Shown here one piece after another: positions 20,564 through 33,264 of a stretch of DNA of 33,264 bases. Position numbers and translations under genes: made by a program. The stretch lies in IMG/VR virus record IMGVR_UViG_3300032224_000167, positions 1-33,264 of that record; one strand, written 5' to 3'. Under the pieces are notes generated by a model. The model did no database searches and had not been told where the DNA came from. It saw only the letters and a list, made by a program, of their open reading frames with translations. This DNA comes from a virus. Every line of letters starts with the position of its first letter. The first letter of the stretch is position 1.

Positions 20564-20821
20564 TTAATAATCCTCGCCTGCGCAAGCTGGTTGTGCGCCT
20601 AAGAATTGAGAGTTATATTTTCCGTTGTGATCCCAAGGTGTTTTTAAAAAACCTTGAAGATTTTCAATTGTGTTGTCGCGTCCAAGCCAAACAGATTGCT
20701 GTCTAACCCCATTTGGTTTGGTAATGGCAATAATTACGCTGCCACCATAACGACCATTAAAAACTTGATGGTTTGGCAATGCTTTAATTGCATTAATTAA
20801 TTGCTGTTCTTCTTGCGTCAT
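20564..20821 (-). CDS. Small hypothetical protein, first gene of internal transcript
   Basis: An 85-aa protein: helical start MTQEEQQLINAIKALPNHQV followed by beta strands (GGSVIIAITKPNGVRQQSVW, LGRDNTIENLQGFL). I use the ATG at 20821 because AAGGAG lies 7 nt upstream. An earlier ATG in frame at 20863 coincides with the predicted +1 of the promoter at 20870-20897 and lacks a ribosome binding site. In the duplicated leader of the LPD29 gene the matching ATG is followed at once by a stop. The family is not recognised. Confidence 0.6.
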   Translation of the reverse strand: MTQEEQQLINAIKALPNHQVFNGRYGGSVIIAITKPNGVRQQSVWLGRDNTIENLQGFLKTPWDHNGKYNSQFLGAQPACAGEDY

Positions 20822-20869
20822 CTTGATTCTCCTTAAAGACCCTATGCGAAATTGCTGGGGCATGAATGA

Positions 20870-20897
20870 ATTATAAGCTGGCTTAACACCAAGTCAA
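20870..20897 (-). promoter_or_regulatory. Internal leftward sigma70 promoter
   Basis: On the minus strand: TTGACT, 16-bp spacer, TATAAT. The predicted start is near 20863, giving a leader of about 42 nt that ends with GGGTCTTTAAGGAG. The spacer and -10 contain the operator-like palindrome at 20873-20886. Promoter, operator and leader all resemble the main leftward promoter at 22087-22115, so the module looks duplicated. Confidence 0.75.
20873..20886. promoter_or_regulatory. Operator-like site O1
   Basis: Plus strand ATAAGCTGGCTTAA, a near-palindrome with half-sites TAAG and CTTA. It differs at only two positions from the site over the cro promoter (GTAAGTTGGCTTAA, 22164). It overlaps the -10 of the internal leftward promoter, so a bound repressor should block it. 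The binding protein is presumably the Cro-like product of 22187-22339. Confidence 0.6.
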
Positions 20898-21493: not shown

Positions 21494-22042
21494 TTAAGCT
21501 GTCAACATACCCACTGCGCCGTATCCGTAACCGTCATCACCAAGAAAACACACACTGGCGGCGGTCGGGCTGGTCTGCGTATCGCACAAACTGATTTCTT
21601 GAACTTTTTGCAGAATTCTTCTTTCTGTTTCGTAATCCAAACCCCGTGCGATGTAAGCGCCGAAGCTGCTTTCGCACAACTCAGGCATTGCATAACCGTA
21701 ATATTCGCAAGCTGCTTGCACAGCACCCTCAAAAAACGCCATCGAATATTTCCGATTGACAAAGATGAAGTCAGCACCAAACCGAACATTCACGCCGTTC
21801 ATGCTGCTGTAATTGCTGCCTTTGTAATCGGTCATGCCATCAAAGTAGCTGCCCTCAAAGTTGCTGACAACGGACTTGACTTGTTCGTAAGTAGGGCCGT
21901 TTTGATACTTGATGTTGATGGAAGCGCCGCCGCTGTACACGCTGGAAGTGACGCTGAATTTGACGTTGGGGAATGACTCCCTGAGAGCAGCCCGAACTAA
22001 TTTTGCGGTTTCGGCACAAGAAAGATATTGAGTGTCTGACAT
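21494..22042 (-). CDS. LPD29-domain protein
   Basis: A 182-aa protein whose residues 5-75 match what I recall of large polyvalent protein associated domain 29: YLSCAETAKLVRAALRESFP, then VKFSVTSSVYSGGASINIKY, NGPTYEQVKSVVSNFEGSYF and DGMTDYKG. LPD domains are normally found in giant polyvalent proteins of mobile elements; here the domain stands alone with a helical, Tyr/Cys-rich C-terminus (ACEYYGYAMPELCESSFGAY). It is the first gene of the leftward operon, under the operator-bearing promoter, with AAGGAG before the ATG. Molecular function unknown. Confidence 0.7.
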   Translation of the reverse strand: MSDTQYLSCAETAKLVRAALRESFPNVKFSVTSSVYSGGASINIKYQNGPTYEQVKSVVSNFEGSYFDGMTDYKGSNYSSMNGVNVRFGADFIFVNRKYSMAFFEGAVQAACEYYGYAMPELCESSFGAYIARGLDYETERRILQKVQEISLCDTQTSPTAASVCFLGDDGYGYGAVGMLTA

Positions 22043-22086
22043 TTCATTTCTCCTTAAAGACCCCGAACAACTCAGGGCATGGGTGA

Positions 22087-22115
22087 ATATTAAGCCACCT
22101 TAACAGCCTTGTCAA
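22087..22115 (-). promoter_or_regulatory. Main leftward promoter (PL-like)
   Basis: Minus strand TTGACA, 17-bp spacer, TAATAT: a strong sigma70 consensus. The predicted start is near 22080, with a leader of about 38 nt containing a CCC...GGG hairpin and TTTAAGGAG. It drives the LPD29-to-28-aa operon. The operator-like site at 22090-22103 covers the -10 and part of the spacer. Confidence 0.8.
22090..22103. promoter_or_regulatory. Operator-like site O2
   Basis: TTAAGCCACCTTAA (plus strand), half-sites TTAAG and CTTAA, spanning the -10/spacer junction of the leftward promoter. It matches sites at 20873, 22125 and 22164 in half-site sequence and 14-bp size. Confidence 0.6.
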
Positions 22116-22124
22116 ATGGCATTT

Positions 22125-22138
22125 GTAAAGCCCCTTAA
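22125..22138. promoter_or_regulatory. Operator-like site O3, between divergent promoters
   Basis: GTAAAGCCCCTTAA is a weaker match to the 14-bp sites, lying between the two -35 boxes (22110-22115 and 22151-22156). A central third site between divergent promoters resembles the multi-operator arrangement of lambdoid control regions. Its lower symmetry makes it less certain than the others. Confidence 0.4.
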
Positions 22139-22150
22139 CTTTGTAGGGTA

Positions 22151-22180
22151 TTGACAAGTATGGGTAAGTTGGCTTAATAT
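22151..22180 (+). promoter_or_regulatory. Rightward promoter of cro (PR-like)
   Basis: Plus strand TTGACA, 18-bp spacer, TAATAT. The expected +1, 7 nt after the -10, is base 22187, which is the A of the cro ATG. The operator-like site at 22164-22177 overlaps the -10. It is the only clear promoter seen for the rightward early genes. Confidence 0.75.
22164..22177. promoter_or_regulatory. Operator-like site O4 over cro promoter
   Basis: GTAAGTTGGCTTAA, half-sites TAAG and CTTA, overlapping the -10 of the rightward promoter. It is 12/14 identical to the site at 20873, more than 1.2 kb away, which argues against chance. Confidence 0.6.
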
Positions 22181-22186
22181 GCAAAT

Positions 22187-22339
22187 ATGGAAAAAGAGCA
22201 AGCAATTAAATTGGCGGGATCGGCGCGAAAACTGGCAGAAATGTTGGGGATCAGCCGCGCCGCCATCAGCCAGTGGGGTTTAATGATTCCACAGGCGCGA
22301 GTGTGGCAATTGAAAGCATTGCATCCAGATTGGTTTTAG
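22187..22339 (+). CDS. cro: Cro-like transcriptional regulator
   Basis: A 50-aa protein that normal length cut-offs miss. It has a helix-turn-helix, GSARKLAEMLGISRAAISQW (residues 11-30), followed by MIPQARVWQLKALHPDWF, the short C-terminal part typical of Cro/YdaS-type regulators of lambdoid phages. It would dimerise and bind the 14-bp operator-like sites at its own promoter, the divergent leftward promoter and the internal one. There is no Shine-Dalgarno, and the predicted transcript starts at the ATG (leaderless). No CI-type partner is present in the window. Confidence 0.82.
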   Translation: MEKEQAIKLAGSARKLAEMLGISRAAISQWGLMIPQARVWQLKALHPDWF

Positions 22340-22447: not shown

Positions 22448-23173
22448 ATGCACTACTATTCTTTTCACGTCAGTGATTACATACACGACACTGCCCATTT
22501 AAGCATTGAAGAAGATTTGGCGTTTCGCCGACTTCTGGATTTGTACTACACGCAAGAAAAACCAATCCCAAACAAAACCCAAGAGGTTGCCAGACGTATC
22601 CGAATGGGTAAACACATTCAGTCTGTGCAGACTGTTTTGGAAGAATTTTTCATGTTTGATTTGGAACGTGATTTTTGGTATCACAAAAGATGCGATGAAA
22701 CTATTGCAGCTTACAAGGCAAAAGCTGAACGAAATCGGGCGGTTGGCAGACTTGGTGGCAGACCCAAAGCTAACCCAACAGAAACCCAAACGGTTTCCAA
22801 AGATAACCCTAACCAAGAACCAATAACCAATAACCATAAACCAATAAAAGAAATACAAGCGGCAGCAGCCGCTGCGCCTAGCGGCGTTTCGCAATCAGTC
22901 TGGAATGATTTTGTTAAGCATAGGAAAGCCCTTAAAGCCCAGATTAGCATGACCGCGATTAACCGCATTCAGCAAGAAGCTGCCAAAGCTGGCTGGACTC
23001 TTGAGCAGGCATTGACTGAATGTGTAGCGCAGGGCTGGCGCGGGTTTAAGGCAGGCTGGGTTGTTGAAAAACAAAACTTAACCAAAACAGGGCAAATGAA
23101 TCAGACCGTTATGTCTGGCTTAACTCGCGGACTTATTGGGGGTGGCGGCAATGTCAAATTACTCAAAGGCTGA
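22448..23173 (+). CDS. YdaU/DUF1376 replication protein, lambda O-like
   Basis: A 241-aa protein. Residues 1-85 are a DUF1376/YdaU domain (MHYYSFHVSDYIHDTAHLSI, then EEDLAFRRLLDLYYTQEKPI and a WYHKRCDETI segment), found in phage replication initiators. A basic segment, RNRAVGRLGGRPKANP, and a polar linker (about 105-140) follow, then a C-terminal helical domain. The linker DNA holds a tandem array of 7-bp repeats, a candidate origin as in lambda O. GAGGT lies 7 nt before the ATG at 22448; a TTG 15 nt earlier is less likely. It is followed by a P-like gene. Confidence 0.8.
   Translation: MHYYSFHVSDYIHDTAHLSIEEDLAFRRLLDLYYTQEKPIPNKTQEVARRIRMGKHIQSVQTVLEEFFMFDLERDFWYHKRCDETIAAYKAKAERNRAVGRLGGRPKANPTETQTVSKDNPNQEPITNNHKPIKEIQAAAAAAPSGVSQSVWNDFVKHRKALKAQISMTAINRIQQEAAKAGWTLEQALTECVAQGWRGFKAGWVVEKQNLTKTGQMNQTVMSGLTRGLIGGGGNVKLLKG
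22805..22846 (+). repeat. Iteron array in O-like gene, candidate replication origin
   Basis: Units AACCAAG, AACCAAT, AACCAAT, AACCATA, AACCAAT follow each other without gaps at 7-bp steps (22811-22845), preceded by AACCCT. Two further AACCCAA copies lie upstream at 22772 and 22783. An A-rich stretch (AAAAGAAATA) follows. Iterons inside an O-like gene next to an A-rich tract are the layout of lambdoid origins. Confidence 0.65.
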
Positions 23174-26599: not shown

Positions 26600-27495
26600 T
26601 GGCTGTCCCGCTGTCCAGCATGATGGCAGCGGCACAACCAGCACAAAGCCCTGATCAAGTTAGGGCGGCGGCGCTTGTCCCGCAAGCCCAGCCTCAATCG
26701 CAAGACCCGATTGAGCAGGAATACTTTGACCGCCTGCAAAATGATTATTTGAAGCTGCGGCAGGAATATGCTGCAATTAAAGAATCTGGCGGCGGCAAAA
26801 TCCTGAACACTGACATTGCGCGGGAATTGTCCCCGCACTATTTGGCAGACCGCACTAAATCTGCAAATGTGCATGAACCGTCCAGCCAGTTCATCAAACG
26901 GGTTTACGCTGAAAAACTGTCAAATCCAACCCCCAAAGGCATGGACAACACCGTTGTTTTTACCGCTGGCGGCACGGGCGCAGGCAAAACCACCGCCTTG
27001 GAAGCAGTCAAAAACATTTCTGATTCAGTCAAACGGGCTGAAATGGTGTACGACACCAACATGAACAAATTTGAGACTTCCGACAAGAAAATCCAGCAGG
27101 CATTGAAAGGAAACCGTAAGGTTTCAATCATCTACACCTACCGCGATCCTGTGGAAGCCTTGGAAAACGGCGCACTGAAACGTGCCAATAGGCAAGAAAA
27201 AGAACACGGCACAGGCAGAACTGTACCAATTGGTGAACATTTAAAAACGCATATTGGCGCATTAAATACCATCCATGAATTACAGGAAAAGTACAAAAAT
27301 AATCCCAAAGTCAAGATTCAAGTCATAGATAACTCTCGCGGTGCTGGCAAATCTGCTGTAAGTTCGCTTGACAAGCTGCCTAAATTAAACGAAAATGAAG
27401 TTCAAAGGAGGTTATATGACACGCTTGACCGCGCCCGCAGAAGCGGCGCTATTTCGGAAAACACCTACCGAGGTTTTGCCGTTAACTCCCGCTGA
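26599..27495 (+). CDS. Zeta-toxin-like P-loop kinase
   Basis: A 298-aa protein. A helical, Gln-rich N-terminus (about 1-65) precedes ILNTDIARELSPHYLADRTK (68-87) and a zeta-type kinase domain: Walker A GGTGAGKT (124-131), EMVYDTNMNKFE, then VSIIYTYRDPVEALENGALK and VIDNSRGAGKS. Zeta kinases phosphorylate UDP-GlcNAc or related small molecules, but phage homologues of this TDIARELSP type have no proven substrate. It lies among late and virion genes, so it might be packaged and ejected. A small ORF with a very strong Shine-Dalgarno overlaps its 3' end. Confidence 0.75.
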   Translation: MAVPLSSMMAAAQPAQSPDQVRAAALVPQAQPQSQDPIEQEYFDRLQNDYLKLRQEYAAIKESGGGKILNTDIARELSPHYLADRTKSANVHEPSSQFIKRVYAEKLSNPTPKGMDNTVVFTAGGTGAGKTTALEAVKNISDSVKRAEMVYDTNMNKFETSDKKIQQALKGNRKVSIIYTYRDPVEALENGALKRANRQEKEHGTGRTVPIGEHLKTHIGALNTIHELQEKYKNNPKVKIQVIDNSRGAGKSAVSSLDKLPKLNENEVQRRLYDTLDRARRSGAISENTYRGFAVNSR

Positions 27496-33141: not shown

Positions 33142-33264
33142 CAAAACCTTACCAGTTGGGTCAACTGGGTTAATTCTTAGGGAAACCTATGTCAGAAGTC
33201 GCAGAAAGACTTGCCGCCAATGTGGTGACAAGTGAAAATTTAGCTGAATTTAATGCCAAGAGAA
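33142..33264. repeat. Terminal direct repeat, right copy
   Basis: Exact copy of bases 1-123. The portal stop at 33109 is followed by 32 unique bases and then this repeat, so the true gap between the portal and scaffold genes on the circle is 79 bp. Confidence 0.95.
33189..33264 (+). CDS. Scaffold gene start, cut by window end (duplicate)
   Basis: First 25 codons of the scaffolding gene (MSEVAERLAANVVTSEN...), identical to 48-123. It is an effect of the terminal overlap, not a second gene. Confidence 0.9.
   Translation, partial: MSEVAERLAANVVTSENLAEFNAKR

Follow-up and report, generated by a model that had tools for sequence, protein, structure and literature searches.

A P22-type early control region apparently reduced to Cro, with matched operator types, in a group of freshwater phages

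What a Cro-like protein and its putative operators do in a phage with no recognisable CI partner was the question raised by one locus of the IMG/VR virus record IMGVR_UViG_3300032224_000167, the whole of which (33,264 bases) was analysed and is called the window here. Positions 1–123 are identical to 33142–33264, forming an exact terminal direct repeat of 123 bp, and the window is a complete circular genome with a circle of 33,141 bp. Because the genome is complete, the absence of CI and integrase cannot be put down to the record being cut short. The structural genes encode a portal protein, large terminase, scaffold and major head protein. The nearest named relatives by terminase were two circular Manatee Spring genomes (78% and 72% identity), both with annotated P22-like portal and coat proteins, and a DNA-level search of the phage collection with the window gave only short matches in four records.

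The left operon encodes an LPD29-domain protein as its first product (21494–22042, minus strand; Pfam LPD29, 1.3e-23), an ERF recombinase and a YqaJ exonuclease. In the right operon, cro is followed by a gene for a DUF1376/primosomal, O-like replication protein (22448–23173, plus strand; Pfam DUF1376, 5.3e-24 from an upstream start), the product of which also matched a PHROG primosomal protein (1.6e-34).

The sequence-only reading of this region had proposed a Cro-like gene of 50 codons, and the open reading frame at 22187–22339 (plus strand) bore this out. Its product matched Pfam P22_Cro (PF14549) with 5.5e-12 and 45.7 bits, over the curated cut-off of 30.2. The AF2 model of the 50-aa protein had four helices (pLDDT 94), and its best PDB match was P22 Cro (1rzs) with a TM-score of 0.82 and a Foldseek E-value of only 0.006; by this model the product has the all-helical P22-type Cro fold. 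The available part of one account (PMC4997575) describes N15 and P22 Cro with five helices, so the four predicted here suggest that the last helix is missing from the window Cro. With its position taken from P22 by analogy, the recognition helix of the window Cro is SRAAISQW, versus SDAAVSQW in P22. The YdaS-type toxin model (PF15943) also scored above its cut-off of 30 (32.3 bits); P22 Cro itself scores 34.3 with that model, and P22_Cro was the better match for the window protein. The loci with this Cro formed the first-type set of 72, window included (39 nonredundant by upstream region), and a length of 50–53 aa was found in 71 of the 72. In one relative (L011, G002:C1:3849-4002), the cro frame was broken by a frameshift, either a natural mutation or a sequencing error; its terminase gene was split too.

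Near-consensus divergent promoters had also been claimed and were recovered by consensus match: PR (TTGACA-18-TAATAT, 22151–22180, plus strand), predicted to drive cro and the right operon, and PL (TTGACA-17-TAATAT, 22115–22087, minus strand), predicted to drive the left operon. They do not flank cro as had been supposed; both lie to the left of it, in the gap of 144 bp between the LPD29 gene and cro, back to back with 35 bp between the -35 boxes. A third, internal leftward promoter (TTGACT-16-TATAAT, 20897–20870, minus strand) was likewise recovered, above a gene at 20564–20821 (minus strand) whose start was inferred from its Shine-Dalgarno (SD) sequence, the listed reading frame beginning upstream at 20863. 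Promoter-like matches numbered 21 in 12.4 kb, with 17.9 expected by shuffling; the internal promoter was the best of the 21 (11/12 consensus matches) and PL and PR were among the next (10/12).

Six bases lie between the end of the PR -10 box and the ATG of cro, and the predicted transcription start is the A of that ATG (22187). An SD-like motif was found ahead of cro in only 4 of 72 loci versus 72 of 73 for the left gene. Given the scarcity of this motif and the position of the -10 box, the cro mRNA is probably leaderless (region 22175–22189), a trait probably kept across the family.

Comparison of the leaders of the leftward transcripts pointed to a CCC..GGGG hairpin in the PL transcript immediately 5' of the SD sequence (22056–22081, minus strand), with a second copy below the internal promoter (20835–20864, minus strand). 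The hairpin was kept at several leftward promoters of loci of classes 1 and 2, with the variants CCGC..GCGG and CTC..GAG. Its stem showed paired changes: 89.8% of cells were paired (31 of 33 distinct leaders), and the covariation score was 0.311 versus 0.204 for shuffled leaders and a maximum of 0.123 when the element was slid. Pairs changed on both sides numbered three, which was within the shuffled range (78/500).

The sequence-only reading had listed four matching operators of 14 bp, and 14-mers were indeed present at 22090, 22125, 22164 and 20873, those at 20873 and 22164 agreeing at 12 of 14 positions. The pattern TTAAGN4CTTAA with up to two mismatches occurred 14 times in the whole window versus 13.8 expected, with no excess, so the count alone proves nothing. 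A site matrix was therefore built from 102 sites of the relatives, excluding the window. By this matrix, the three highest-scoring 16-mers in the window were those at 22089 (20.5 bits), 22163 (18.8) and 20872 (17.8), and the best score in 20 shuffled windows averaged 11.8 with a maximum of 14.1. These correspond to the candidate left operator TTAAGCCACCTTAA (22090–22103, over the -10 box and spacer of PL), the candidate right operator GTAAGTTGGCTTAA (22164–22177, over the spacer and -10 box of PR) and the candidate operator ATAAGCTGGCTTAA at the internal leftward promoter (20873–20886). Between them they overlap the -10 boxes of the three strong consensus promoters, one site per promoter. The middle site GTAAAGCCCCTTAA between PL and PR (22125–22138; 16-mer at 22124) is degenerate, with 9.3 bits, which is not above chance in the window by the matrix of the relatives. 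Compared with the form of 44 of the 72 loci it lacks one C, so that a conserved G is shifted out of register, and this loss was seen only in the window and L011 among the 72. Three of the four proposed operators were thus upheld as candidates, and no operator function is claimed for the 22125 site in the window. An additional match at 27357 (13.9 bits) was rejected, since shuffled windows reach such scores and it lies in a gene; together with a second operator-like sequence 13 bp away (10.4 bits), it spans 27357–27385, a coding region, and overlaps a TTGACA, all in the range of chance.

In the relatives, TAAGN4CTTA with at most one mismatch was present in all 39 nonredundant upstream regions of the first type and at least twice in 38 of them, whereas shuffled regions gave a mean of 3.9 with one site and 0.2 with two. 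Conservation of the half-sites in relatives held: with zero or one mismatch, the right site was found in 72/72 regions and the left site in 70/72. The right site begins 23 nt before the ATG in 36 of the 39 regions. A de novo search for dyads in the same regions returned TTAAG-4-CTTAA in 16/39, the best dyad in shuffles reaching 5. The Cro of phiKO2, of the same fold class, is reported to bind just one among several predicted operators (PMC4997575), and conservation of a site is therefore no guarantee that it is bound.

Of 97 LPD29 loci found, 80 were examined, and eight of the 80 gave no Cro. Four of these (L039, L048, L067 and L087) end too soon to show it, three of the four still having TAAG sites; in the others (L037, L068, L069 and L073), the LPD29 gene is not beside such a switch. 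L068, L069 and L073 carry another long palindrome (CATAGATTAACGTAAGTTAATATCTATG-like) upstream of LPD29 with no cro adjacent. In the circular GenBank record MW202544 (L092:19308 onward), a cro with TTAAGG repeats is unannotated, minus-strand reading frames being annotated in its place.

Two of the 80 LPD29 loci, L022 and L047, encoded a different helix-turn-helix protein and had a TCACA-N2-TGTGA palindrome at both promoters. This second-type protein matched P22_Cro weakly (16.5 bits, below the cut-off). A search with the L022/L047-type protein provided further loci, 80 of 90 found being used, with 55 nonredundant regions. The de novo dyad scan returned TCACA-2-TGTGA in 47/55 of these regions, with a best dyad of 4 in shuffles. 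Allowing one mismatch, this site was present in 52/55 second-type regions, twice in 46, and in 0/39 of the first type; conversely, two TAAG sites were found in 0/55 second-type regions and a single one in 9/55. The distance of the right site from the start was about 23–25 nt in both types.

The same correspondence extended to the leftward promoters. The leader element was preceded by an operator of its own type in 108 of 119 copies of the first type and 68 of 84 of the second, and by one of the other type in none of the 119 and none of the 84, counts in which some of the loci are near-copies of others. Whole-record searches detected a single Cro type in each record. A 33-kb record (L287, G022:C1:15000-23000) had two second-type cro regions in inverted order and is possibly a chimeric assembly.

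The terminases of the second-type records G029, G023, G031 and G033 were 74–85% identical to that of the window, and the remaining second-type records had a distant terminase or no match. In a tree of 28 terminases, second-type G029 was sister to first-type G011 (support 100/99). At least two changes are required to account for the second type on this tree, and a single second-type clade was rejected (p_AU 3e-6). Ten records with distant terminases, G002, G014 and G015 (split or partial) and records with no terminase match lay outside the tree. Q-type recognition helices looked like one clade on it. The best reading of these comparisons is that recombination moves Cro together with its matching operators, so that several specificity classes exist in one group of apparently lytic phages.

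Two further Cro types were present. For the fourth (L093-like), TAAGN4CTTA with at most one mismatch occurred in 17/17 regions, twice in only four. For the third (L086-like), no shared operator dyad could be demonstrated in eight nonredundant regions, the best, TGATG-9, occurring in 4/8 versus a best of 2 in shuffles; TTGAGATTATCTCAA in L086 is an anecdotal observation. Since no such dyad emerged and several of its relatives (G037, G043 and G044) have an integrase, the third type was left out of the argument.

That no CI or integrase accompanies this Cro, as the sequence-only reading had also held, was supported by the completeness of the genome and by profile searches of 50 records: 22 of the first type (window included), 13 of the second, 3 of the third, 5 of the fourth, 4 circular GenBank relatives and 3 temperate controls. 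The first, second and fourth types with the circular GenBank relatives made up 44 family records; the IMG/VR records may mostly be fragments, and the window and the GenBank records are circular. The profiles PF00589 and PF00239 matched in 0/44 family records, and PF00589 matched in 3/3 controls; over all 50, an integrase was detected in four records, the three controls and third-type G037. A further integrase search of four records (three third-type and one second-type of 64.7 kb) was positive in two, both third-type. S24 peptidase was found in 0/44 family records and in 3/50 overall, controls only, and resolvase in 0/50. ParA-type AAA_31 gave 0/45, a set of the 44 family records and phage PdC23, with the third type and the controls outside it. 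HTH_3 exceeded its cut-off in five of the 50 records, namely the controls and third-type G036 and G037; hence neither S24 nor an over-cut-off HTH_3 match marked a divergent CI/C2 gene in the 44 family records, window included. HTH_3 matches below the cut-off in 27 more records were mostly Cro itself, with a few longer frames (G016, G023, G028 and MW202710). The Cro profile had no match in MW202710, a circular relative. A repressor of an undescribed family would escape the profile searches used here.

Among known systems, immC of P22 (c2, cro, OR) is the closest, so that the label lambda-like, given earlier to the region, was right in kind, with P22 the nearer match by Cro family and by fold. 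The recognition helices differ at 2/8 positions. The P22 DNA beside cro holds TTAAGTCATCTTAA and TTTAAGTGTTCTTTAA, the former fitting the window site pattern TTAAG-N4-CTTAA exactly. Both phages have a left operon with an ERF recombinase and a right operon with cro and then a replication gene. Unlike P22, the window has no c2/CI gene, its PL and PR are the back-to-back pair described above, its Cro is about 11 residues shorter, no SD sequence precedes cro and an extra operator lies on the internal leftward promoter. In lambda, early transcription is limited by Cro through repression of PL and PR. Lambda Cro belongs to another fold class, and the window lacks cI, PRM and rex, with OL and OR fused in one gap. 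Read from its sequence, the region is a variant of the lambda/P22 control region in which the cI segment is absent. Predicted operators lie at both early promoters (22090 and 22164, on the -10 boxes), and neither a divergent CI/C2 gene nor an integrase was found. The region would work like the lytic half of a lysis-lysogeny switch and is not a member of that class, because the defining cI segment is absent.

The literature search, outside which most subscription journals lay, returned nothing on Cro-only phages whose operator types are exchangeable, and Streptococcus thermophilus phages were the only precedent it gave for Cro-only lytic phages. The available parts of the reports on these describe virulent phages with the integrase gene absent and a cro-like regulator kept (PMC5338259) and a lysogeny replacement module with presumed remnant genes (PMC5601072). 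They differ in their Gram-positive host, and no operator analysis or exchange of specificity classes is given in those parts. Pantoea phage PdC23 (Certevirus) provided the best named Cro match (55.6%). It is alike in its cro divergent from a left operon with ERF, in having no annotated CI and in giving no integrase or ParA match by profile search. It differs in having no match to the window terminase, a recognition helix of SREAIRLW and, by eye, no evident TTAAG palindrome beside cro. SA97 was described by its authors as having neither CI nor Cro, and AchV4 has an integrase.

Taken together, the data argue for a P22-type control region in which Cro alone is left, acting as an autoregulated timer of both early operons and exchanged along with matched operators, and we consider this reading likely. 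Cro is, on the best reading, the only recognisable early repressor of the window phage. Early after infection, PL and PR would both fire unrepressed. Cro, probably translated from a leaderless mRNA, would accumulate and occupy the operators across the -10 boxes, lowering PR, and with it cro itself and the O-like replication gene, as well as PL and the internal promoter. It would thus be a self-limiting timer of the recombination and replication phase of a presumably lytic phage, with no CI acting in cis. The earlier suggestion that Cro alone times both early operons is well supported, as far as sequence comparison goes, by conservation and by exchange with matched operators.

A second, unrecognised repressor elsewhere in the phage could still establish lysogeny or a plasmid state and make these phages temperate. 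The early operons are full of genes of unknown function, weak HTH_3 matches occur in the few longer frames and third-type G037, G043 and G044 have an integrase. Integrase, S24 peptidase, resolvase and AAA_31 were, however, uniformly missing from the family records by searches in which the controls were positive for integrase and S24, and we regard such a repressor as unlikely.

Alternatively, the operators might serve mainly a CI-like repressor that a host or a helper prophage provides in trans, with Cro as its competitor. The half-site shared with P22 DNA would fit this, as would the Thiothrix MAG contig L246, of a distant bacterium, in which a CI-like gene is divergent from a Cro gene with TTAAGTTGGCTTAA, a site of the same TTAAG-N4-CTTAA pattern, between them. 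When 84,980 species genomes of bacteria and archaea were scanned on the basis of the Cro alignment, with two peptide patterns only and so not exhaustively, nine loci of Cro relatives were kept, the best being 54% identical. In all four of those that were read, by eye, a divergent CI-like gene lay upstream of cro, so these loci look like prophages with a full switch. The few and distant loci kept speak against a repressor in trans; Cro alone is enough to explain why Cro type and site type match reciprocally, and no such repressor is needed to account for conservation. We think this alternative very unlikely.

Most improbable is a decaying relic, in which a recent clear-plaque derivative of a temperate phage kept cro and operators without function: the occurrence of the Cro family beside CI-like genes in bacterial contigs (L244 and L246) and in temperate phages makes a temperate ancestor likely, but the nearly uniform length of Cro and the constancy of the right site argue against decay, and the operators switch type together with Cro, at other promoters too, which those of a relic would not.

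With Cro as the likely timer of both early operons, a large group of freshwater phages keeps Cro without sign of a CI partner or an integrase. Cro has mostly been studied as the opponent of CI, and here Cro and its operators are maintained in dozens of natural phages where no CI is recognisable, so that the role of Cro in lytic growth alone is open to direct study in them. The exchanged Cro-operator sets are a natural experiment on protein-DNA specificity, with two Cro types and two palindromes at the same promoter positions. They raise the question of why an immunity-like specificity diversifies in phages seemingly without lysogeny. One answer, which we hold doubtful, is that the Cro types are exclusion (immunity-like) groups among phages that are never lysogenic, the Cro of the phage that entered a cell first shutting off early transcription from the promoters of a later arrival if this is of the same type and not if it is of another, or that Cro regulates an episome in a carrier state. 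The lambda-dv plasmid has the layout PR-cro-replication gene without CI, which the layout of the window resembles. If true, such exclusion groups or a Cro-regulated episome would explain the diversification and exchange of operators without lysogeny.
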